DNA of 35,697 nt, from positions 1-35,697 of IMG/VR virus record IMGVR_UViG_3300030329_002334; one strand, 5' to 3'. This DNA comes from a virus. The position numbers and the translations under genes are program-made. The notes below the pieces were generated by a model. The model did no database searches and was not told the origin of the DNA. It saw only the letters and a list, made by a program, of their open reading frames with translations. Positions 21,185 to 30,022 of the stretch are shown here, in pieces; the stretch's first letter is position 1, and the number at the start of each line of letters is the position of its first letter.

Positions 21185-21559
21185 TCACCCTAAGTCTATA
21201 CTAACCTTAACGTCACCAGCGTGTAAGTGCATATGGCGTTCAGGCGACTTAAACCCTGCTCGGTCCAGTATATCCTTGCTAGCTTCAAGCTGAACATACT
21301 CACTCTTGGCATCTGTAGCTAACCTAAGCACTCTGTTGGAAGCTATAGTAGCATTAATACCAATACTACTACTAATCTGTTGCATCATATACTGTTGCAC
21401 ATGTGGTTGCTTAAGAGCCTTCATAGCTGATACTCTACCAGACTCGCCTTTAGCATATCCTGCTTCTTGTGATGCTTGTTTGATACTACATCCTGTTGCT
21501 ACTAGAGTATCCACTAGCTTAGTCTGCTTCTCTGTTAAGTTAGCTACTGTCAAGGTCAT
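21185..21559 (-). CDS. terS: Terminase small subunit (124 aa)
   Basis: DNA-recognition subunit of the packaging motor. The N-terminal half is the helix-turn-helix typical of the Terminase_2-type small subunits: LTEKQTKLVDTLVATGCSIK, then QASQEAGYAKGESGR and LKQPHVQQYMMQQ. The C-terminal part (LEASKDILDRAGFKSPERH) matches the usual D.AG...P....  ending. First gene of the late arm, directly beside the structured noncoding region. No Shine-Dalgarno precedes the ATG at 21559, so expression may be low or leaderless. A minus-strand TTGACA lies 31-36 bases upstream but lacks a convincing -10. Confidence 0.85.
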   Translation of the reverse strand: MTLTVANLTEKQTKLVDTLVATGCSIKQASQEAGYAKGESGRVSAMKALKQPHVQQYMMQQISSSIGINATIASNRVLRLATDAKSEYVQLEASKDILDRAGFKSPERHMHLHAGDVKVSIDLG

Positions 21560-21588
21560 TCGGCTACGTTAATCCATCTTCAAAACCC

Positions 21589-21615
21589 TTGTCAAGGGGT
21601 TAATTTCACTAAAAT
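21589..21615 (+). promoter_or_regulatory. Candidate plus-strand promoter upstream of the structured RNA
   Basis: TTGTCA (21589-21594, 5/6 to the -35 consensus), a 15-base spacer and TAAAAT (21610-21615, 5/6 to the -10). The spacer is shorter than ideal. Initiation would fall near 21622, inside the dyad ATCAAACAAGTTTGAT, which could then act as an operator. It would drive the structured RNA and perhaps the early genes. Confidence 0.3.
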
Positions 21616-21617
21616 GC

Positions 21618-21669
21618 ATCAAACAAGTTTGATTCGCTACGCTTGGTCTTCTTTTTAGCTAAAAAGAAG
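21618..21669 (+). repeat. Dyad + hairpin module, copy 1
   Basis: Dyad ATCAAACAAGTTTGAT (21618-21633), linker TCGCTACGCTTGGT, then a perfect 22-base palindrome at 21648-21669 (arm CTTCTTTTTAG), followed by CAAAAAGCC. The same architecture recurs at 21703-21756. Confidence 0.85.
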
Positions 21670-21702
21670 CAAAAAGCCTATTTCATAAGTAGAAATAGAA
21701 GT

Positions 21703-21756
21703 ATCAAACAAGTTTGATTAACGCTAACGCTAGGTTCTTCTTTCATCTGAAAGAAG
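21703..21756 (+). repeat. Dyad + hairpin module, copy 2
   Basis: Identical dyad ATCAAACAAGTTTGAT (21703-21718), linker TAACGCTAACGCTAGGTT, then stem CTTCTTTC/GAAAGAAG with loop ATCT (21737-21756), followed by CAAAAGACC. Relative to copy 1 the stem changed T-A to C-G on both sides, a compensatory change that preserves pairing. Confidence 0.85.
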
Positions 21757-21785
21757 CAAAAGACCAAATCAGGATTTGGATATTG

Positions 21786-21846
21786 GAGTTAGGCTAGACA
21801 GCCCTAACTCTCTAAAGAGGTTTGTGTGAGGCTAGACAGCCCTCAC
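21786..21846 (+). repeat. Twin hairpins with one shared apex and covarying stems
   Basis: The 15-mer AGGCTAGACAGCCCT occurs at 21791-21805 and 21829-21843. In the first it is closed by GAGTT/AACTC (hairpin 21786-21810), in the second by GTG/CAC (21826-21846). The apex is identical while the basal stem sequences differ with pairing kept, which is good evidence for a selected structure, for example a protein- or RNA-binding loop AGAC. Confidence 0.85.
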
Positions 21847-21853
21847 GGCACTC

Positions 21854-22038
21854 TATTCTGAACCAAACGCATGCAAAGAGTTTAAAACTATGTGTCTACG
21901 CAAAGGTCGCTTCATGCTCATACTTCGCAGGATTCCGCTCTCAATGCTCAAGCAGACACAAAGTTTTAGAGTAACTCGCAAGCTCATCCATGCCTCTCTA
22001 CTACTAGAACCCCTCGCAGGTGCGAGCTAAACAGAATA
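21854..22038 (+). other. Structured-RNA domain 1 (long-range closed)
   Basis: TATTCTG (21854-21860) pairs with CAGAATA (22032-22038). Inside, TAAAACTATGTGTCT (21883-21897) pairs with AGACACAAAGTTTTA (21954-21968) with one A-A mismatch, enclosing 56 bases. CTCGC/GCGAG with loop AGGT lies at 22013-22026. Confidence 0.6.
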
Positions 22039-22045
22039 TACTTAA

Positions 22046-22080
22046 TTCTGCGTTAAGTACGCAGAAAGAATTTGTTTTTT
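22046..22080 (+). terminator. Hairpin with nearby U-rich tract, possible terminator
   Basis: Stem TTCTGCGT/ACGCAGAA with loop TAAGT (22046-22066), then AAGAATTTGTTTTTT. The U-rich run starts several bases after the stem, so termination may be partial; it could separate the two RNA domains. Confidence 0.4.
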
Positions 22081-22101
22081 ATTAATTCTGTGTAGCGATT
22101 G

Positions 22102-22335
22102 GCATAAGAAAGGGCTACGGGTGTTCGCTGAGGCAGATGACGCACCCTACGACCTTCTGTGGACGCGAACGACCTCAAATCTACAGAACAAAATACGGCA
22201 GATTCCAAATTAGCGATTCCCTCTTGTGCGTCATAGACGCACGCTCTATGCTAATTTCCCCTTGTCGCAGAAGAGGGCGACAATTCCTCGCGACCATCTT
22301 TGATTTTCTTCTGTATATTTGACCCTTTCTTATGC
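22102..22335 (+). other. Structured-RNA domain 2 (13-bp closing stem, multi-branch)
   Basis: GCATAAGAAAGGG (22102-22114) pairs perfectly with CCCTTTCTTATGC (22323-22335), closing 234 bases. Branches: GGGTG/CACCC (22119-22147); TTCTGTGG/CTACAGAA with one G-U (22155-22188); AAATTAGC/GCTAATTT (22207-22257) enclosing GTGCGTC/GACGCAC with loop ATA (22226-22242); TTGTCGC/GCGACAA (22262-22283). This is the arrangement of a multi-helix junction. Confidence 0.7.
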
Positions 22336-22347
22336 AGAAGACTAGGG

Positions 22348-22380
22348 TGGGAGGGGTTCTCGTAGAGAGAGCCTCGCCCA
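22348..22380 (+). other. Strong hairpin just upstream of the first early gene
   Basis: Arms TGGGAGGGGTTCTC and GAGAGAGCCTCGCCCA pair over 13 positions with one A-G mismatch and two G-U pairs; loop GTAGA. No U-tract follows. It precedes an A-rich leader containing AAACTCAAATAAAAGG and the ATG at 22413. RNase III-type processing or 5'-end protection is as likely as termination. Confidence 0.65.
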
Positions 22381-22412
22381 TAAATCTTAAACTCAAATAA
22401 AAGGAAATTAAA

Positions 22413-23243
22413 ATGAGTATTGAAAATAAATCTAAAATTGAAACTGTTAGAAAAATAACTAGCAACAACTATACTGACGACCATATAGAGCAACACCGAC
22501 AGCTCTTAAGAACCAAGATTACACCTACTAAGCAGGTTGAGGCTTTCCTAGATGGTCTTGGTACTGAAAGAAAGATTGGCTTTGCTTGGAAGGTTATCTT
22601 CGACACAATGTTTGGAGACCAACAGGAAATGGTTAAGGCTGAATCATCTAATGGACAAGAGACTCCTCTTGAATATGCAGACGGAGATTACACCTATTGG
22701 GCAACGGCTTATATGGAAGCATTGTTATCTAATACTTCTGTATGGAATACATCTAAGGATGGCAAAGCTCAATCTCCTACAGCATGGAACTATAAAGCAA
22801 TCACCAATGCTACTGCTAAGATTAATGACCTTAAATCTAAGTTCATTGATACTGATGTTAATGCAGAAACTGGTGAGATTGTAACCAGAGAGGACCATGA
22901 TGCTATCGACAACGATAATGATATTCAGAATTGGGAAGCACGGAGAAGAAATGCTCTTGGCTTCAATGAAATCTGCGTTGCATCTGACTTGTCCTTACTT
23001 GCTCTCTTTCAGGAGTACACTTCTACTAGCTTTGTACATTGGAAAGAGAGGTTAGCTCTTCAAGACTTAGCAAGAGAAAAAGCTAAGCAAGATGCCGAGC
23101 TAGCTCAAAAGGCAAACTCAACTTATCAGCAGTACTTCACCAAGATGAAGGAGATAGAGATAGTGCCAGAAAAGAAAAGGACTGAAGCTCAGATTGAAGA
23201 GTTAAAGTTCGCAAGAGAAATGGTAAAGGCTCTAAGTGCTTAA
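22413..23243 (+). CDS. First early protein, unknown function (276 aa)
   Basis: Preceded by AAAAGGAAA nine bases upstream. Largely helical: an N-terminal charged segment (HIEQHRQLLRTKITPTKQVE), a central part with DYTYWATAYMEALLSNTSVW, and a C-terminal coiled-coil-like Ala/Lys/Glu region (LAREKAKQDAELAQKANSTY). I do not recognise a family. Being first in the early block, it may be a host-takeover or regulatory protein; that is position-based inference only. Its last codons contain the GTG start of a 29-codon hydrophobic peptide gene. Confidence 0.7.
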   Translation: MSIENKSKIETVRKITSNNYTDDHIEQHRQLLRTKITPTKQVEAFLDGLGTERKIGFAWKVIFDTMFGDQQEMVKAESSNGQETPLEYADGDYTYWATAYMEALLSNTSVWNTSKDGKAQSPTAWNYKAITNATAKINDLKSKFIDTDVNAETGEIVTREDHDAIDNDNDIQNWEARRRNALGFNEICVASDLSLLALFQEYTSTSFVHWKERLALQDLAREKAKQDAELAQKANSTYQQYFTKMKEIEIVPEKKRTEAQIEELKFAREMVKALSA

Positions 23244-23325
23244 GCCGACTGATGTAATCTTCATCATAGCAGTATCCATTCCGTTAGGGATGGGTATTGC
23301 TACCTTAATACAAAACTTAAATTAA
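23236..23325 (+). CDS. 29-residue hydrophobic peptide, GTG start
   Basis: GTG at 23236 overlaps the stop of the upstream gene by eight bases and has AAAGG six bases upstream. The frame reads (M)LKPTDVIFIIAVSIPLGM then GIATLIQNLN and a TAA at 23323. Residues 7-25 form one good membrane helix with a short charged N-terminus. A single-span inner-membrane micropeptide in an early operon could serve in superinfection exclusion or host modification (inference). A 16-pair hairpin (23267-23302) lies within the frame. Confidence 0.55.
   Translation: MLKPTDVIFIIAVSIPLGMGIATLIQNLN
23267..23302 (+). other. 16-pair hairpin after the first early gene
   Basis: TAGCAGTATCCATTCC pairs with GGGATGGGTATTGCTA, three of the pairs G-U, with loop GTTA. 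No U-tract follows. It lies inside the 29-codon frame, so it could modulate translation or be an mRNA processing site. Confidence 0.65.
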
Positions 23326-23359
23326 ACAGGACAAATAAAATAAAAAAAGGATTTAATAA

Positions 23360-23707
23360 ATGTCTAAGGTGTTAATATGTGGAGGTCGAGACTTTAAGGA
23401 TGCTCGACTCCTAACAAATTTCATGGATAAATTCCAACGCAATCACTCACCTATAACATTGATAATACATGGTGATGCTAGAGGTGCTGATACTCTTGGT
23501 AAATTCTATGCTAAAAATAATGGAATACCATTTGAATCATACCCTGCTAATTGGGATTTATATGGGAAATCCGCAGGTATCAGACGTAATGAACTGATGC
23601 TTGCACAAAACCCAGATTATGTAATCGGCTTCTACGGAGGCAGAGGTACTGCTCACATGCTTAAGATTGCACGGCAGAAAAACATAACAACATTGCACAT
23701 AAACTAA
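23360..23707 (+). CDS. SLOG-family (DUF2493/YspA-like) nucleotide-binding protein (115 aa)
   Basis: Rossmann-like SLOG domain covering the whole protein: KVLICGGRDFKD (GGRDF at 8-12), HGDARGADTLG (37-47), YPANW (61-65), GKSAGIRRNELM (69-80) and YVIGFYGGRGTAHM (87-100). These are the conserved DUF2493 motifs, which bind nucleotides or their derivatives. Biological role in phages is not established. Predicted ligand binding makes an effect on nucleotide-signal immunity or on host nucleotide pools possible, but this is speculation. An AAAAAAAGG ribosome site precedes the ATG. Confidence 0.85.
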   Translation: MSKVLICGGRDFKDARLLTNFMDKFQRNHSPITLIIHGDARGADTLGKFYAKNNGIPFESYPANWDLYGKSAGIRRNELMLAQNPDYVIGFYGGRGTAHMLKIARQKNITTLHIN

Positions 23708-23710
23708 ACC

Positions 23711-23751
23711 GACTCTGGTGGCAACCTAAGAACAAGGATGTCACCAGAGTC
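23711..23751 (+). terminator. Hairpin after the SLOG gene with an alternative downstream partner
   Basis: GACTCTGGTG (23711-23720) pairs perfectly with CACCAGAGTC (23742-23751); only AATTTT follows at a distance. ACTCTGGTGG (23712-23721) can instead pair perfectly with CCACCAGAGT (23809-23818), which is followed directly by TTTTCTC. The two foldings are mutually exclusive, as in an attenuator. Confidence 0.5.
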
Positions 23752-23828
23752 CAGAATTTTGAGGGCGTGAGGACTAGCGGATGCGAACAGAATTATTGCA
23801 CTCAAATACCACCAGAGTTTTCTCAACT

Positions 23829-23858
23829 TTTTCATGTAAAAGTATGATTAAGTATAGT
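23829..23858 (+). promoter_or_regulatory. Weak promoter candidate ahead of the DUF932 gene
   Basis: TATAGT (23853-23858) resembles a -10 hexamer; TTTTCA 18 bases upstream matches the -35 at four of six positions. It lies 41 bases before the ATG at 23900, in a 192-base gap. Low confidence. Confidence 0.25.
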
Positions 23859-23866
23859 AAACTCTT

Positions 23867-23881
23867 AACACTAAACACAAA
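23867..23881 (+). promoter_or_regulatory. Shared leader box (AACACYAAACACAAA), copy
   Basis: AACACTAAACACAAA here matches AACACCAAACACAAA at 26977-26991 at 14 of 15 bases. CCAAACACAAAG recurs at 24928-24939, and a related AAACTCAAAT is at 22389-22398. Each copy lies after a hairpin and before the ribosome site of an early gene. Confidence 0.5.
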
Positions 23882-23899
23882 TAAAAAGGAGAGAATCAG

Positions 23900-24886
23900 A
23901 TGCCACTAGATAATACTATTGCAACTGAACCACTGTTAAATAGAATTATTAAACAGGAATACCACAACCCAGAAGACTATAACTTCCCAGTTAAATGGGC
24001 AGTACCAGAAATTTCTACTGTTACTTATGAGAATGATGATGGTACTACTAATGTAATTATGACAAATGAAATGAGACACCTCATTAATACAAGAGATAAA
24101 TGTGTTGTTGGTATACATAAATCTAAATATGTTGAGCAACTACATGAACCATTGGTTAATAATGTACTGGATGTAGCTCACAAAATAGGAGCAGGAAAAG
24201 TAATACCAAACATAAGAGTGTATGAGAATGGTAAGAAACTAAAAGGTGAAGTGTTCTTTCCAGATACAGCATTTACTGTACGCTCAGGCATGAATGATAC
24301 TGTGTGTTTCAAGATTGAGTTTGGTAATTCTTATGATGGTACTTGGAAGTTAGGTATCAAAGCTATGGCATTACGACTAGCATGCCTCAATGGTATGTGT
24401 CATCATCAAGGTATTAGTGGTGCTGTACTTAAGCATACTGCTAATGCTAATTATGATGGTGTGATTGAAGCTATGAAACAATCAACTAAACTCTTTATAG
24501 ATAGCGAAGAAACCTACAACCAAATGGTAGGAGTAAACCATACAGAGAAGACAGCTATGAATTGGTTTCGTAAGTACCTATGCACAGACTATCAAGGTGG
24601 TAAGTATAAAGTAAATGAAACTCAGTCAGCTATAATGCACAATAAATTAACTCAGTATCGCAAACAATTAGGTGGCAATGCTTGGGCTACATACAATACT
24701 ATGACTGATTGGGCTACACATACACCAGTATTGGAGAAAGAAAACTTCAGTCCTTATCGTAATGAATCTCCTGTTGCTAGAATTAATGATACAAATAATA
24801 GAAACAATAAGATTAGCAAGATGCTTAAAGCATTAAAGGAAACAAAAGGAGGAGTAGAAGTAGATAAGTTTCTAGTCTCTGCATAA
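23900..24886 (+). CDS. DUF932 family protein (328 aa)
   Basis: The pattern is that of DUF932 (phage/plasmid-like protein) members: VVGIHKSKYVEQLHEPLVNN (a Y...QN.E-like early motif), GEVFFPDTAFTV, VCFKIEFGNSYDGTWKLGIK and ALRLACLNGMCH (R..C.NGM), then a helical C-terminal part. Family function is unknown; members are common on plasmids and phages, often near recombination genes, as here. AAAAAGGAGAG precedes the ATG by six bases. The gene stands alone between two hairpin-bearing gaps, so it may be an independent transcript or processed unit. Confidence 0.85.
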   Translation: MPLDNTIATEPLLNRIIKQEYHNPEDYNFPVKWAVPEISTVTYENDDGTTNVIMTNEMRHLINTRDKCVVGIHKSKYVEQLHEPLVNNVLDVAHKIGAGKVIPNIRVYENGKKLKGEVFFPDTAFTVRSGMNDTVCFKIEFGNSYDGTWKLGIKAMALRLACLNGMCHHQGISGAVLKHTANANYDGVIEAMKQSTKLFIDSEETYNQMVGVNHTEKTAMNWFRKYLCTDYQGGKYKVNETQSAIMHNKLTQYRKQLGGNAWATYNTMTDWATHTPVLEKENFSPYRNESPVARINDTNNRNNKISKMLKALKETKGGVEVDKFLVSA

Positions 24887-24891
24887 AAAAA

Positions 24892-24923
24892 TGGGTGGAG
24901 AAAAATGAATAAAACTCCACCCA
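24892..24923 (+). other. Hairpin after the DUF932 gene
   Basis: TGGGTGGAG pairs perfectly with CTCCACCCA across a 14-base A-rich loop, six bases after the stop codon. GTTTCC follows, not a U-tract. The box CCAAACACAAAG (24928-24939) comes next. Confidence 0.65.
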
Positions 24924-24971
24924 GTTTCCAAACACAAAGTCAATGACCACATTATAACGGGAGAGAAAGTA

Positions 24972-25259
24972 ATGAAGTCCATTACCATTAACATAAAAGT
25001 ATTAGCAAAAGCAATAGGCAAGTACAATAATGCACTAGATAGTACCAGTATATCAAAAGAGTTATTCCCTGACTCGGATATACTTAGAGAAAAGTTTGAA
25101 ACGATAGCACATGAAGCATGGTATGATACTGTTGCAGGTAAAGAAGAACAAGAGGAACCAGAACCTGAAGAGCTTGGGGTTAGGGAAGAGATGGAGAATA
25201 ACAAGCTCATAACCCAGTCCGATTATGAGGACAGAATAATTTCATTAGATATATTTTGA
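24972..25259 (+). CDS. Small acidic hypothetical protein (95 aa)
   Basis: Starts MKSITINIKVLAKAIGKYNN, continues with a predicted helix (LREKFETIAHEAWYD) and an acidic Glu/Pro stretch (KEEQEEPEPEELGVREEME). GGGAGAGA precedes the ATG. No recognised family. The acidic composition and early position are compatible with a host-enzyme inhibitor or DNA mimic, but nothing specific supports that. Eleven bases separate it from the next gene. Confidence 0.6.
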   Translation: MKSITINIKVLAKAIGKYNNALDSTSISKELFPDSDILREKFETIAHEAWYDTVAGKEEQEEPEPEELGVREEMENNKLITQSDYEDRIISLDIF

Positions 25260-25269
25260 GGAGAGAATA

Positions 25270-25479
25270 ATGGAAAAGAAAATAACAAAGACATCTTTAG
25301 TTCTTAAACATTTAAAAGAACATGGTAAGATAACATCTATGGAAGCAATAGAAAAATGGAAAGCAACTAGGCTAGCCGCAATCATTCTTAATCTAAGAAA
25401 GAACTATTCTATAGATACAGAGATGGTTCCATTTGATGGAGCAAGGTATGCTCGCTATCATTATAGAGGTGAGAAGTAA
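25270..25479 (+). CDS. Winged-helix DNA-binding protein (69 aa)
   Basis: Small HTH protein: SLVLKHLKEHGKITSMEAIE, then KWKATRLAAIILNLRKNY, is the helix-turn-helix with the conserved SM.AIE......RL...I..LR...Y pattern of phage HTH domains (HTH_39-like), and TEMVPFDGARYARYHY the wing. Function: probable transcription or replication regulator. GAGGAGAGAA precedes the ATG. The stop overlaps the next start (TAATG), so it is cotranslated with another HTH protein. Confidence 0.75.
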   Translation: MEKKITKTSLVLKHLKEHGKITSMEAIEKWKATRLAAIILNLRKNYSIDTEMVPFDGARYARYHYRGEK

Positions 25480-25880
25480 TGTTTATACATGAACAGCTTG
25501 AAGCATTACAAATTATGCTAACCGAAAAGCAGATGAATGTATTAAAACAAATCTACATTCTTAATGAAACAAAAGGGCATGGCAACACAACACATAAGCA
25601 GATAATGAAAGCTACTGGTTATCCTAATAGCTACCTTAGTTCATGCCTTAATGGTATGGAGGTAAGACATAAAATAATAATTGCTGTTACACTTAACAGT
25701 CATGCTTATGCTACTGGTATCTACAATACCTATAGAATAAATAAGAAAGGCATAGCTATACTAAAGAAAGACCTTGCACTTATGCAAGATGTCAGTAATA
25801 TAACTGAGTATGAAAAGTTACTTCGAACATCTGTCAGTACTCTGCAAGGACAATCAAGTAGACCTAGCCTCAGCCTTTAA
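25479..25880 (+). CDS. MarR/winged-helix-like protein (133 aa)
   Basis: Residues 12-60 (MLTEKQMNVLKQIYILNETK, HKQIMKATGYPNSYLSSCLN) form a winged-helix-like DNA-binding unit, and YNTYRINKKGIAILKKDLAL completes a wing and helix. It resembles MarR-type regulators in outline, without a specific family match. Coupled to the preceding HTH gene by TAATG. Its last 71 bases overlap the next gene in another frame. Confidence 0.6.
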   Translation: MFIHEQLEALQIMLTEKQMNVLKQIYILNETKGHGNTTHKQIMKATGYPNSYLSSCLNGMEVRHKIIIAVTLNSHAYATGIYNTYRINKKGIAILKKDLALMQDVSNITEYEKLLRTSVSTLQGQSSRPSLSL

Positions 25881-26067
25881 GTTTGCAGGAATACCTTACT
25901 CTACATACTATCGCAACATGCGTGGTACAGAGTTAAGGTATTCTACTGCACTTAAAGTTCTTGATGCTGTAGATATAATAAGCAAACACAAAGAGGTATA
26001 TAAGAAATGCCTAGTAAAGAAAAACGAAAAGGAACATACCACGAAAAAGCAATACTCAAATGGCTAA
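25810..26067 (+). CDS. Cro/C1-type HTH protein overlapping both neighbours (85 aa)
   Basis: Residues 17-55 (VDLASAFKFAGIPYSTYYRN, GTELRYSTALKVLDAVD) fit a Cro/XRE helix-turn-helix: LA..F..AGI..ST......G..L.Y.TA..VL.A. The tail is Lys-rich. It overlaps the upstream gene by 71 bases and the nuclease gene by 61, each in a different frame, which is heavy packing even for this phage. No obvious ribosome site precedes the ATG, so translation may depend on the upstream gene. Third HTH protein in a row, suggesting an early regulatory cluster. Confidence 0.6.
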   Translation: MKSYFEHLSVLCKDNQVDLASAFKFAGIPYSTYYRNMRGTELRYSTALKVLDAVDIISKHKEVYKKCLVKKNEKEHTTKKQYSNG

Positions 26068-26384
26068 AGGAAATAGGATTTCCTGTTAAGAAACAAATAC
26101 TTAGCGGTAGTCTAGTAGATTCTCATGGTCAGCAATATCGTGGAGACCTGATACTCGACATGCCTGAAATGAATATAAGAGTAAAAGAAAAATTAAACTT
26201 GTATGTCGAGGTAAAGTACAGAGACGCATCCAGTTTCCCCAATGCGTTCTCTGTGCTTGAAGGAAGAGACATAGCTTTCTTCAAGAGGAGAAAGGGAACA
26301 CCTAAGACATGTGTTATTATTGATGGAGATATATTTGAATCAATAGTAGCACCACAACTATTAAAGAAAAGGAATAAGAAATGA
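26007..26384 (+). CDS. Holliday-junction-resolvase-like PD-(D/E)XK nuclease (125 aa)
   Basis: Short Hjc/VRR-type nuclease fold: KGTYHEKAILKWLKEIGFPV (Glu13), SGSLVDSHGQQYRGDLIL (Asp47) and YVEVKYRDASSFP (Glu68-Val-Lys70), then DIAFFKRRKGTPKTCVIIDG. The E...GD...ExK order is the catalytic signature of archaeal-type resolvases and related phage nucleases. Likely role: cleaving branched DNA during recombination or before packaging. GAGG eight to nine bases upstream supports the start. It lies upstream of the exonuclease and annealing genes. Confidence 0.75.
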   Translation: MPSKEKRKGTYHEKAILKWLKEIGFPVKKQILSGSLVDSHGQQYRGDLILDMPEMNIRVKEKLNLYVEVKYRDASSFPNAFSVLEGRDIAFFKRRKGTPKTCVIIDGDIFESIVAPQLLKKRNKK

Positions 26385-26905
26385 ATGACACGTATAATTT
26401 TGATAACCATGTAATTAAGATTGAGCCTAAAGCTATGGTACATGTACTGCTTGCAGAAAGAAAAGATTCTGATGAAACTCTGCGAGAAATATATGAGACA
26501 TTAAGAAATGTTAATGGCTGTACTCTTGAGACAGGAAAGTTTGTGCATCAAGCAGTCTTTCGTGCTGACTCAATAGACTCTGCTAACATGGCATTAAAAA
26601 GATTCGATTGGTATATGACACCTATACCTAAAGAACAATTAATAAAAGCATTAACTCCAATAGCTTCTATATTAAGACATGAAACTACAGATACAGAAGA
26701 AATAAAAAATCAAAAGATAGATATAACTGCTGATATTCTTACTGGTTATCCTGCTGACTTAGTTACTATAGGTATAAGGAATGTTAGTATTAATTGTCTG
26801 TACTTTCCTCAACCAGTAGGATTCTTAAAGACAATAAAGCAAGCGTATACAGAACGTACATTTATTAGAAAGCTAATAATAAAAGAGATTGACAGATTGC
26901 AATAA
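26381..26905 (+). CDS. Hypothetical early protein (174 aa)
   Basis: Overlaps the nuclease stop by four bases (ATGA). The C-terminal part, DITADILTGYPADLVTIGIR then YFPQPVGFLKTIKQAY, has an L..YPAD.....IR.......FP....L pattern that I associate with small phage proteins resembling helicase-loader-type factors. The resemblance is weak. If real it would be the only replication factor in the genome. The N-terminal half has no recognised domain. Followed by a 95-base gap with a nested hairpin. Confidence 0.55.
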   Translation: MNDTYNFDNHVIKIEPKAMVHVLLAERKDSDETLREIYETLRNVNGCTLETGKFVHQAVFRADSIDSANMALKRFDWYMTPIPKEQLIKALTPIASILRHETTDTEEIKNQKIDITADILTGYPADLVTIGIRNVSINCLYFPQPVGFLKTIKQAYTERTFIRKLIIKEIDRLQ

Positions 26906-26922
26906 TGCAATTACTGTCTACC

Positions 26923-26980
26923 TGTTAGGGTATCCTTTCTTTATCCTTGCCTGTGTAAAGAAACGAGACATGCCCTAACA
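26923..26980 (+). other. Nested hairpin upstream of the exonuclease gene
   Basis: TGTTAGGG (26923-26930) pairs with CCCTAACA (26973-26980). Inside, TTTCTTT (26936-26942) pairs with AAAGAAA (26957-26963). The outer 3' arm runs into the leader box AACACCAAACACAAA (26977-26991), so structure and box overlap. No U-tract follows. Confidence 0.65.
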
Positions 26981-27000
26981 CCAAACACAAAGGAAACAAT

Positions 27001-27936
27001 ATGATACAATTAAGTGAAACGGAGAAAGACCGTAATAAATATATTGGTGGTAGTGATGTCGCCAAGATTATGAGTGGAGATTGGTATGACCTCTGGTTAG
27101 AAAAGACTGGGCAAGTAAAACACCCAGACTTATCAGATGTATTCCAAGTACAACTAGGTATAGTAACAGAAGCATTTAATATTAAGTGGTTCTATAAAAA
27201 TTATACTGACTGTGCAAAACAAAATAAGATAGAAGGTGTAAACCCAAGACAATTATTTGGAAGAAAAGCTAGCGAAGAATTAATTGATGAAAGTTTTATG
27301 CGTGGCAATCTTGATGATGTATGTATAGATGGTTCAGGTAGGATATGTGCAATAGAAGCTAAACATACAAGTGCTTTGGGTATGAGATTCAAGAATATAG
27401 ATGAGGCAATAGAAACGTACATGCCTCAGATGCAATTTTATCTGTACCTTCTACACCAAAATTTTTCAACTGATGATTACTACTACCCAGTAGGTGGATG
27501 CTACTTCCCTATTATCTTTGGCAACGTATGGCATTGTGTAAAGATAAGTAGTTATGCAGGGTATCAAATAGATATGGTAGATGCCATCCATAGATTTAAG
27601 AAACATGTAGATAAGTTTGACCCAGAGTGTCCAGAAGCAACAGCACCACCAAAATATAAAACAAAGCAAACTAAAATAAAAACAGAAACAATACCTATTG
27701 ATGGTATGATTAAAATAGATATGACACAAAGCAATTCATTCGCACAAGATGCAAACGAATATATAAATGCAAAGATAGAAGTAGATAAGGCAAAGCCTAA
27801 ACTAGAAGAAGTACGACAGAAACTTCTTGAACATGTACCACCAAACGCAAGAGAAGTGTATAGCAATCTCGGAACAATTAAGCGTGATGCTAAAGGTACA
27901 CTTAGAATAAACATGAAGGGAGAAGCCAATGGCTAA
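27001..27936 (+). CDS. YqaJ/lambda-exonuclease-like recombination exonuclease (311 aa)
   Basis: 5'-3' exonuclease that would resect ends for the annealing protein next door. YqaJ-type motifs: YIGGSDVAKIM (residues 14-24), GIVTEAFNIKWF (Glu57), MRGNLDDVCIDG (Asp105/106), CAIEAKHTSA (Glu119-Ala-Lys121) and YMPQMQFYLYL (Gln143, Gln145), the full PD-(D/E)XK set with the trailing QxQ helix. The C-terminal third is Lys-rich and helical (NEYINAKIEVDKAKPKLEEV). AAAGGAAA precedes the ATG. It overlaps the annealing gene by eight bases. Confidence 0.9.
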   Translation: MIQLSETEKDRNKYIGGSDVAKIMSGDWYDLWLEKTGQVKHPDLSDVFQVQLGIVTEAFNIKWFYKNYTDCAKQNKIEGVNPRQLFGRKASEELIDESFMRGNLDDVCIDGSGRICAIEAKHTSALGMRFKNIDEAIETYMPQMQFYLYLLHQNFSTDDYYYPVGGCYFPIIFGNVWHCVKISSYAGYQIDMVDAIHRFKKHVDKFDPECPEATAPPKYKTKQTKIKTETIPIDGMIKIDMTQSNSFAQDANEYINAKIEVDKAKPKLEEVRQKLLEHVPPNAREVYSNLGTIKRDAKGTLRINMKGEANG

Positions 27937-28420
27937 TACAAGACAAGACTACGAGAAGCAGAACGCAGACCTATGGGACAGACTATCTACTACTGACCCT
28001 GCCTACACAAAGAGTGTGCCATCATCTTGGGGTAAGAATATTACTACTATCAATGCCCACTATCAGATAAGAAAGATGACAGAACAGATAGGTCAGGTAG
28101 GTGACAAGTGGGGATGGGAAGCTACCTATGAAATAAAAGATATAAGACATGGAGAAGAACTGCATACTATGGTTTTTGCTTATGTTTCTATATGGGTAGG
28201 AGATAAGGACAAAGCTATTGGTCCAATACCAAGTTCTGTGCCTATGGTACACACATCAAAGAAGAATCCCAGAGGTAGGATTGATGATGAGGCACCAAAG
28301 AAAGCTATGACTGATGCACTAACCAAAGGCTTATCCCACTTTGGTTGTGATGCTAACATCTTCTTAGGTGAATGGGATAACAACAAGCATGTAAATCAAC
28401 CTGACGACCCATTTCAATAG
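27929..28420 (+). CDS. Erf/Rad52-like single-strand annealing protein (163 aa)
   Basis: Partner of the YqaJ exonuclease. Landmarks: ITTINAHYQIRKMTEQIGQV, GWEATYEIKDIR, VFAYVSIWVGDKDKAIGPIP, then DDEAPKKAMTDALTKGLSHF followed by GCDANIFLGEW. The D..KKAMTDA..K.LS..G..A.I..G segment is the conserved helix of phage annealing proteins (Erf/Rad52-like). Exact subfamily is uncertain. Translational coupling with the exonuclease is indicated by the overlap and GGGAGAAG upstream. Together they form a recombination system that could drive replication and gene exchange. Confidence 0.75.
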   Translation: MANTRQDYEKQNADLWDRLSTTDPAYTKSVPSSWGKNITTINAHYQIRKMTEQIGQVGDKWGWEATYEIKDIRHGEELHTMVFAYVSIWVGDKDKAIGPIPSSVPMVHTSKKNPRGRIDDEAPKKAMTDALTKGLSHFGCDANIFLGEWDNNKHVNQPDDPFQ

Positions 28421-28429
28421 GAGGAATAA

Positions 28430-28870
28430 ATGGAAAACACTAAAGCCAAAGGTAACTTGTTTATGAATAACGAACTATCAAAAGCAAAGTTAGTAGCTCA
28501 AGGTCCAATAGATATGGAAGAAGGAAAGAGAAACTTTGCCCTAATCAAAATGGATTGGGATGATGAGAGTAGCATTGATGTGTACCAGAAAATAGGTAAA
28601 CTATACGACAACAATGATAGGGAAGGTAATCTAAAACAAGACACCAATCCTTTAGCTCCTCGTTATACTTCTACTGTAAATACAGTAGATGGTAAGAAGA
28701 GAATCTCAGCTTGGATAAACACCCCGAAAAATGGGGGGAACAAGTATGTAGCAGTAACAATCGAAGATGCTATTGGTGCTACTTATAAGAAGGAAAAAGA
28801 ACAGAAGCCAAAAGAGCAGGAAGAATGGAAGAAGGAGGCACAAGAAATTGGCGAATCACCATTCAGTTAA
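28430..28870 (+). CDS. Putative ssDNA-binding-like protein (146 aa)
   Basis: Directly downstream of the annealing gene with a strong ribosome site (AGGAGGA). Residues 50-115 look like a small beta-barrel (VNTVDGKKRISAWINTPK, GGNKYVAVTIEDA) and the C-terminus is charged, ending EIGESPFS. The order exonuclease - annealase - ssDNA-binding protein is common in phages, and an acidic tail ending in Pro-Phe is reminiscent of SSB, though here followed by Ser. No clear OB-fold signature, so the call is tentative. Confidence 0.5.
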   Translation: MENTKAKGNLFMNNELSKAKLVAQGPIDMEEGKRNFALIKMDWDDESSIDVYQKIGKLYDNNDREGNLKQDTNPLAPRYTSTVNTVDGKKRISAWINTPKNGGNKYVAVTIEDAIGATYKKEKEQKPKEQEEWKKEAQEIGESPFS

Positions 28871-29060
28871 TAAGAACCCATTCCATTCTAACGTACCACT
28901 ATTCAAATGTGTATTGTGTGGTGGTGCTTTCGAAGGATACGGAAACAATCCAGAACCATTAGCTAAGTTCGAAGATGGTCGTGCTTGTGACACCTGTAAC
29001 AATGACGTAATCATAGAACGTATGCTAAATATTCAAAAGAATAATAGTAAGAAAAAATAG
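28848..29060 (+). CDS. Zinc-ribbon protein, TTG start (70 aa)
   Basis: I place the start at TTG 28848: GGAGG lies nine bases upstream, whereas the first ATG (28767) would add 27 codons of basic sequence read out of frame from the upstream gene. The product (M)ANHHSVNKNPFHSNVPLFKC... has Cys21-x2-Cys24 and Cys47-x2-Cys50, a treble-clef or ribbon zinc site, and ends in a Lys run. Role unknown; nucleic-acid or protein binding is likely. It overlaps the preceding gene by 23 bases. Confidence 0.7.
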   Translation: MANHHSVNKNPFHSNVPLFKCVLCGGAFEGYGNNPEPLAKFEDGRACDTCNNDVIIERMLNIQKNNSKKK

Positions 29061-29066
29061 AAAAAA

Positions 29067-29110
29067 GAGAGGGTAGTTTGTTTCAATTTCCTTTTGTTTG
29101 CTACCCTCTC
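29067..29110 (+). terminator. 10-bp perfect hairpin after the zinc-ribbon gene
   Basis: GAGAGGGTAG pairs perfectly with CTACCCTCTC across a 24-base U-rich loop, seven bases after the stop codon. There is no U-tract after the stem (ACCCAATT). It marks the end of the recombination block and may be a processing site or 3'-end stabiliser. Confidence 0.5.
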
Positions 29111-29198
29111 ACCCAATTAGACCCTGAAATTTAGCCATACAGAGGGGTTAAATACTTTCTATAGGGTATAGTACCCCCCAAAATTAACGAGGATTCTC

Positions 29199-29408
29199 AT
29201 GTATATAACTTATATACTTGTGTTGATTTCATTAGAAGCAACACCAACATCATTGTACTCAATAGAGTTTCGAGACAAAGCATTATGTATAGAAGTCGCT
29301 GAACATTTAACCAATACAGGTCTTGGCGACCAATGCTTTGAGAGGTATAACTATGATGGATATACTGCACCACCTGATAGACCTACTAATATAGGGAAAA
29401 AAATATGA
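29199..29408 (+). CDS. Small secreted or membrane-anchored protein (69 aa)
   Basis: Hydrophobic N-terminus (MYITYILVLISLEATPTSLY) resembling a short signal peptide or anchor, followed by a polar part with two cysteines (ALCIEVAEHL...GDQCFERYN) that could form a disulfide in the periplasm. Similar tiny proteins occur in many marine phages without known function. ACGAGGA precedes the ATG by five bases. Its stop overlaps the next start (ATGA). Confidence 0.6.
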   Translation: MYITYILVLISLEATPTSLYSIEFRDKALCIEVAEHLTNTGLGDQCFERYNYDGYTAPPDRPTNIGKKI

Positions 29409-29623
29409 GTAGAATATTTCATGGGCAAGACCAGAAGGGCAGGGTAATAATCCAATGCCCTCATTGTAAGATGATGCACCATCTAGGTCATATCAAATTT
29501 AAAAACATTAGATGTAAATGTGGAGAGCGTATCAACAACCCAGAGATTGAACGTCATGTAGATATGTTAAATGAAGAATGGGAAAGGATGAAATCTAAAT
29601 GGCAAAGAAACAAAAAGGAATAG
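29405..29623 (+). CDS. Zinc-ribbon protein (72 aa)
   Basis: Zinc ribbon with Cys18-x2-Cys21 (QCPHCKMMHHLGH) and Cys37-x-Cys39 (RCKCGERI), followed by a helical, charged tail (NEEWERMKSKWQRNKKE). Four-base overlap with the upstream gene and 25-base overlap with the next show tight coupling. Probable nucleic-acid- or polymerase-binding accessory protein; specific role unknown. Confidence 0.65.
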   Translation: MSRIFHGQDQKGRVIIQCPHCKMMHHLGHIKFKNIRCKCGERINNPEIERHVDMLNEEWERMKSKWQRNKKE

Positions 29624-29799
29624 TAGATATAGCAGATAGAAAAGACTCTGTTTATTCTGGTGCAGATAGAGCAATTAGATATGAACTAGATGTTCTCTAT
29701 ATGACGATTAAAGAATTATTGAAAGATAATTCTCAGAAAGAAAAGATGATACAGAAACTTAAAAGGAAACTAAATGGAAAAGCAACAAGTAATAATTAA
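29599..29799 (+). CDS. Small coiled-coil protein (66 aa)
   Basis: Begins MAKKQKGIVDIADRKDSVYS and continues as one long helix with heptad-like hydrophobics (LDVLYMTIKELLKDNSQKEK, MIQKLKRKLNG). No family recognised. It overlaps both neighbours by about 25 bases, so it belongs to the same translationally coupled set of small early proteins. Confidence 0.55.
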   Translation: MAKKQKGIVDIADRKDSVYSGADRAIRYELDVLYMTIKELLKDNSQKEKMIQKLKRKLNGKATSNN

Positions 29800-30022
29800 T
29801 GAGTGGAAGTGTTCCTCATGTGGAGAGACAGCAGTAATGAAAATCAAGAAGAAGAAGTATTGTTCTGTATGTGCGTCTCATCAGATGGGCAACCAAGCGT
29901 ATCGCAAAACAAAAGATAAAGCCATTGTTCAGGAGGAGCAGACTCAAAAGGTATCTCGTCTACAGATTCTTCAAAGCCTAAACTTAACTGAAGAGGAGCT
30001 TCACTTGTTGAGTTCAAAGTGA
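29774..30022 (+). CDS. Zinc-finger protein at the end of the early block (82 aa)
   Basis: Cys13-x2-Cys16 (WKCSSCGETA) and Cys30-x2-Cys33 (YCSVCASHQMG) form a zinc ribbon; a helical tail follows (RLQILQSLNLTEEELHLLSS). Last gene of the plus-strand arm. Its final 22 bases overlap the end of the endolysin gene on the opposite strand, so there is no room for a separate terminator between the converging arms. Confidence 0.65.
   Translation: MEKQQVIINEWKCSSCGETAVMKIKKKKYCSVCASHQMGNQAYRKTKDKAIVQEEQTQKVSRLQILQSLNLTEEELHLLSSK

Follow-up and report, generated by a model that had tools for sequence, protein, structure and literature searches.

We asked what occupies the gene-free stretch at positions 21560-22412, where the late (minus) and early (plus) arms of a marine phage diverge. 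The window, meaning the whole stretch of DNA analysed here (35,697 nucleotides), is one entire IMG/VR virus record. Its minus arm encodes the terminase subunits (terS and terL), a head-tail adaptor, the major head protein, and tail and internal virion proteins, while its plus arm encodes a YspA-like protein, a DUF932 protein, a winged-helix protein, a RusA-like protein and members of RecE/YqaJ-like and exonuclease families. The scanned ORFs of the record yielded no recognisable polymerase, primase or helicase family, and a homologue search with the first early protein (276 aa) found none. A preliminary description of this DNA had reported no gene across 853 bases, and we likewise found no credible gene from terS to the ORF starting at 22413 (Table 1). 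Two short ORFs within the gap, one of 61 aa at 22137-22322 and one of 95 aa, antisense, at 22181-22468, could in principle mark an overlooked protein-coding region. However, the relatives examined share no conserved ORF across their gaps, and the changes among these relatives are explained by conserved base pairing rather than by a reading frame, making this explanation extremely unlikely. The possibility that the gap holds the genome ends or a cos site was also rejected, as the 250 nt directly upstream of terS show just a mild enrichment of contig ends.

Table 1. Positions of the features described in the text, numbered from the first letter of the window; cells are empty where no strand or basis applies.
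Feature	Position	Strand	Basis or remark
terS, terminase small subunit, first late-arm gene	21185-21559	-	phrog_2538, E 3.6e-9
Gene-free structured region	21560-22412		ORF list, folding, whole-record scan
Late (terS-arm) promoter	21566-21595	-	-35 TTGACA at 21595-21590; weak -10 at ~21572-21566
Palindromic repeats and two hairpins	21618-21756		hairpins at 21648-21669 and ~21737-21756
Twin hairpins	21783-21847		identical apical sequence GGCTAGACAGCC; lower stems differ
Second stem-closed element	21883-21968		arms 21883-21897/21954-21968; surrounding domain no better than shuffles
Core closed multi-helix domain, 376 nt	21994-22369	- (inferred from relatives; region itself neutral)	folding z
Closing helix, left arms	21994-22015		8 bp at 21994-22001, 10 bp at 22006-22015; stem search, folding
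Sub-domain closed by 22026-22037/22085-22096	22026-22096		contains 8-bp hairpin 22046-22066
Perfect 13-bp stem, left arm	22102-22114		partner 22323-22335
20-nt, 90% complementary helix inside the 13-bp stem, left arm	22175-22194		partner 22303-22322
7-bp hairpin GTGCGTC-ATA-GACGCAC	22226-22242
20-nt, 90% complementary helix, right arm	22303-22322		partner 22175-22194
Perfect 13-bp stem, right arm	22323-22335		partner 22102-22114
Closing helix, right arms	22351-22369		22351-22360 and 22362-22369; stem search, folding
First early ORF, 276 aa	22413-23243	+	no PHROG; no Pfam family above cut-off

At the terS end of the gap, the late promoter is directed away from the structured region. Of 170 regions upstream of terS, 152 have TTGACA on the minus strand in their first 150 nt, compared to 10 in shuffles. 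The predicted start falls nearly at the terS ATG in the record as well as in two relatives (L003 and L010), which suggests a leaderless terS message. An exact 17-nt palindrome, ATCAAACAAGTTTGATT, occurs at 21618-21634 and again at 21703-21719, 85 nt apart, in the manner of an operator pair; none of the relatives checked showed its core. In many relatives (for example L057, L047 and L159), runs of six C occur in pairs on the plus strand shortly past the late promoter, together with TGTCAACGCACAAA.

Folding of 21560-22412 gave -258.6 kcal/mol (z -7.1) on the plus strand and -271.2 kcal/mol (z -7.0) on the minus strand, and on each strand none of 20 dinucleotide shuffles was as low. The earlier proviso that folding might prove no better than that of shuffled sequence thus does not apply to either strand. 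When the whole record was scanned in 240-nt windows with eight shuffles per window, 22141-22380 took the top rank by combined z. The core is the 376-nt closed domain at 21994-22369, with z values of -6.3 (plus) and -8.8 (minus) using RNA energies and of -10.5 (plus) and -11.6 (minus) using DNA energies; its two-part closure, of 8 bp (21994-22001/22362-22369) and 10 bp (22006-22015/22351-22360), is absent from the preliminary description. That description had listed more than twelve strong hairpins, two of them nested multi-helix domains. One of them, 22102-22335, stands (z -4.9/-5.2), with its 13 perfect closing pairs confirmed exactly, and sits within the 376-nt domain; the other, 21854-22038, folds no better than chance (z -1.5/-1.7) despite containing a 15-nt, 93% complementary stem. 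The hairpin-rich segment 21600-21850 is also significant, at z about -4.

We then turned to relatives, using 253 loci obtained from terS searches (queries: the record's terS, three relatives, Hodr and MEP301). No convincing nucleotide homologue of 21560-22412 was found by blastn in these loci, and named phages show no nucleotide similarity to it beyond 72 bases inside terS. A 52-nt match to L156/L159 (75%, E 0.009) lies within their first early gene and was taken as chance. Because the record's gap lacks a nucleotide homologue, its own stems cannot be assessed for covariation, which is the main limit of this analysis. The relatives nevertheless have a gap of ~250-1,200 nt in the same place, bounded by the conserved late promoter on one side and by the first early gene on the other, and across terS-linked IMG/VR loci these gaps form 61 clusters with no detectable mutual nucleotide similarity. 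In 60 cluster representatives, the 300 nt at the early-gene end of the gap fold with a mean z of -5.6 (plus) and -6.3 (minus), whereas segments of 23S rRNA average -1.7 on the sense strand by the same measure. In the record and in most groups examined, a domain of ~180-380 nt closes ~10-75 nt from the first early gene. No sequence block common to all gaps was found, and a shared short motif, GTGGTRCG, connects only six clusters. From position and architecture, we infer that the record's gap and those of its relatives are very probably the same element.

Among named phages, Pelagibacter phage EXVC031P Hodr is the nearest (terL 64% and terS 59% aa identity); it shows the same layout, with a gap of 337 nt that folds at -93.5 kcal/mol. 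This gap is absent from the top-ranked windows of its genome, and the case of Hodr is accordingly weaker. A segment of the Hodr late arm (L262, 10801-11040) reaches z -8.2 on the plus strand (eight shuffles) and outranks the Hodr terS gap. In the lineage control MEP301, a Methylophilales phage related through terL, no strongly folded window was found near terS. In four other relatives (L064, L065, L191 and L206), read in the minus sense, a hairpin with a variable stem and a cGAAg loop lies ~94-110 nt from the early ATG, with a conserved AGTGGTGCGG 3' of the hairpin and often CACGG 5' of it.

Within groups of alignable relatives, a change in one arm of a helix is in many cases matched in the other and pairing is retained, so that the fold appears to be under selection. 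Counting only pairs predicted on both strands, compensatory changes were seen at 41 of 139 strand-symmetric pairs in group alignment g5, 16 of 98 in g7, 22 of 140 in g10 and 22 of 141 in g3b. The covarying helices are long-range: they include CCTCCTCC/GGAGGAGG, GCACCATT/AATGGTGC and CCACCCTT/AAGGGTGG, with a span of ~105 nt. In the L216 group, helices spanning ~105 nt and 226 nt have been rewritten and are still paired, and the same holds for helices spanning 110-172 nt in the L160 group. A 248-nt closed domain shared by L160, L163 and L169 comprises 89 pairs, with 98.9% of cells paired and a nearly invariant apical loop; 23 of its pairs carry double-sided changes, compared to 7.8 in shuffles (0 of 500 as high) and at most 5 in slid controls, these shuffles and slides being the relevant controls for a structure derived from three sequences only. 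Sequence turnover is complete between lineages, while within lineages pairing is kept by double-sided changes. A conserved structure is almost certainly present in the family, and a large structured noncoding element is strongly supported, through covariation in the equivalent region of relatives rather than in the record's own.

Could such a pattern arise with no selected function, in an unconstrained spacer where template-switch mutation copies hairpin arms and so mimics covariation? Stems that are almost purely Watson-Crick, the many short-looped hairpins and the complete turnover between lineages would fit this explanation. However, the covarying helices span 100-300 nt, loop and junction sequences are conserved between covarying stems, and retention of such a length in 61 lineages of compact phages would be unexpected. 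Together with the strand asymmetry of mismatches described below, these observations make a neutral spacer very unlikely.

Which strand folds? The preliminary description had favoured a plus-strand RNA on the grounds that several mismatched pairs were G-T in the plus sense and none was A-C. This argument does not fix a strand for the record itself: its own 1x1 mismatches inside Watson-Crick helices include neither G-T nor A-C, and the 376-nt domain has eight G-U pairs whichever strand is folded. Taken alone, the record's gap is strand-neutral, and its last 300 nt lean plus with RNA energies. The relatives point the other way. Across 61 clusters, plus-sense 1x1 mismatches inside Watson-Crick helices comprise 89 A-C and 22 G-T, along with 44 C-C and 4 G-G; A-C exceeds G-T in 31 clusters and the reverse is true in three, while shuffles give 61 A-C and 53 G-T. 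As a plus-sense A-C is a G-U in the minus sense, the mismatches of the family lean minus. A mismatch test on alignments of relatives gave 60 A-C and 28 G-T, compared to 81 G-T and 10 A-C on the sense strand of the 23S control (23S from E. coli plus plasmids served as the wobble control, RNase P having yielded no loci). Among isolated substitutions, transitions show no strand bias (40 CT, 37 AG); the mismatch asymmetry has no matching transition bias, which speaks against a neutral spacer. An energy excess of the minus strand is seen in 40 of 60 clusters, a measure on which 23S gave the expected result, and hairpin loops lean the same way (minus to plus, 12:1 for cGAAg, 8:1 for GNRA and 9:2 for CTTG). 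In the gaps, no conserved minus-strand promoter was found beside the early gene, and minus-strand terminator-like sites show no excess. On balance, minus is probably the acting strand, and the plus-strand RNA first suggested is not what the relatives indicate.

The opposite polarity would correspond to a plus-sense early leader: with the start of the early operon close to the late promoter, a folded 5' leader of 300-1,000 nt would control elongation or translation. A good plus promoter does lie at the left edge of the gap in some relatives (TTGATA-16-TATAAT in L003), plus-strand terminator-like sites number 8 where 0.8 are expected, and the closing helix of L160, L163 and L169 covers TAGGAGACT, the Shine-Dalgarno stretch of the first early gene; the plus lean of the record's last 300 nt also fits. 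Against this, plus promoters are not above shuffles in any part of the gap, the record's own Shine-Dalgarno (~22401-22406) lies outside the closed domain, and the excess of plus-sense A-C over G-T is the reverse of what a plus-sense leader should show. We therefore consider an early leader rather unlikely.

Whether the folded strand is RNA or single-stranded DNA is a separate matter. Long-range covarying helices, the conserved loop and minus-sense G-U pairs speak for RNA. However, RNA-special tetraloops are not enriched (5 seen, ~6 expected), GNRA loops are no more frequent than GNYA, and minus-sense G-U makes up ~5-6% of counted pair states, compared to ~12% in 23S, which fits DNA at least equally. 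With RNA-type tetraloops not enriched and wobble pairs scarce, the element may instead act as single-stranded DNA. Among 7-mers, the most enriched in the minus sense is GCGAAGC (17 occurrences, 3.6 in shuffles). GCGAAGC is an exceptionally stable DNA mini-hairpin, and GNA loops are stable in DNA; as the DNA-special loop tables in the parameter file are empty, the argument from DNA loops rests on this general knowledge.

A DNA reading would have the minus strand form hairpins as single-stranded DNA or as cruciforms, serving as a replication origin, a primer site or an early single-stranded DNA promoter. In the gaps, DNA-energy z is at least as strong as RNA-energy z, the reverse of 23S, and GNA, GNNA, CTTG and TTTA loops all lean minus, although the loop counts are small. 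Linear sigma-70 scans of the gaps showed the late promoter plainly but no conserved early one. On this reading, with which the minus lean of the family would agree, the folded strand would also serve the early genes as template, as in Frpo of the F plasmid or the virion RNA polymerase promoters of N4. The early arm of Hodr encodes an anti-restriction protein and an SSB, genes that are likewise carried by plasmid leading regions with Frpo (PMC11541004). The record's early arm has no recognised anti-restriction family, and at 22413-30022 no replication-initiation family was recognised either, while Hodr has a replication-initiation-like protein. Frpo and ssi elements differ further in that the record's phage has double-stranded DNA with no known single-stranded entry stage and that its element is longer, and no -10/-35 pair was seen by linear sigma-70 scans; the comparison may serve as a lead only. 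Podophages are thought to inject double-stranded DNA, which would leave the source of single strands unexplained, and no virion RNA polymerase was recognised among the scanned proteins. A 1,532-aa candidate for an N4-type virion RNA polymerase proved to be an internal virion protein with an endolysin domain. Covarying helices that span 100-300 nt are, moreover, more easily understood in RNA. We regard a DNA role as a serious but less probable explanation, and lean modestly towards RNA rather than single-stranded DNA.

Does the element belong to a known class? No Rfam family reaches threshold in the record, and the Rfam search that the preliminary description had proposed returned, in an E-value scan of the gap, chance matches to unrelated families far below cut-off. 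The pRNA of phi29 is a packaging-related phage RNA whose structure is kept while its sequence varies; it has no Rfam match here, the gap element is several times larger, and the record's phage has both terminase subunits. The likeness to GOLLD and ROOL that had been suggested extends to being phage-borne, several hundred nucleotides long and of elaborate secondary structure. Identity with them is excluded by the Rfam models, which have no match in the gap even at E 5, and by tRNA context: the usual tRNA neighbourhood of GOLLD is missing, with no tRNA in the record or in the loci and genomes of 17 relatives. The universally conserved 3' domain of GOLLD is likewise absent, there being neither a block common to the gaps nor a model match, and gap sequence is not conserved between lineages. 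At most, the element would work in a similar way. GOLLD and ROOL sit in tRNA islands (PMC12286853), whereas the place of the gap is constant, with terS on one side and the early genes on the other. The control regions that separate divergent early and late genes in phages share the position between the arms, the late promoter and the palindromic repeats, but the gap is far longer and holds nested, covarying long-range helices. No described element of this kind was found in the papers searched.

The explanation we favour, still tentatively, is a large structured phage RNA of minus sense that would act by its shape at the early/late junction. The acting form of the element would be a folded single strand that has the sequence of the minus strand and so runs the same way as the late genes. 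Such an RNA would start beside the first early gene, at ~22370-22400; the 376-nt closed domain would fold first, followed by the run of hairpins, and the RNA would end short of the late promoter (21595-21566). Its shape rather than its sequence would matter, and it would serve as a cis-acting or stable RNA at this control junction. A replication primer RNA, a late leader and a protein scaffold are guesses at its function, each of them improbable taken singly.

The arrangement is common to hundreds of related marine viral contigs and to one isolate, the pelagiphage Hodr. More speculatively, the family may represent a structure-only element: a single-strand fold of ~250-1,200 nt, RNA or single-stranded DNA, retained at the early/late junction of a marine podophage clade, with its pairing preserved although the sequence has been replaced past recognition in at least 61 lineages, and with minus-strand loops of DNA-stable types. 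A folded origin or early promoter would result if it acts as single-stranded DNA, and to our knowledge none of this kind has been described for double-stranded DNA phages of similar size. As Rfam and BLAST cannot detect a covarying fold that lacks conserved sequence, and position is the only way to locate it, there may be a hidden reservoir of large structured phage elements. The finding makes testable the role of such ornate elements in phages, as well as how replication and early transcription start in small phages that have no recognised polymerase, primase or helicase.
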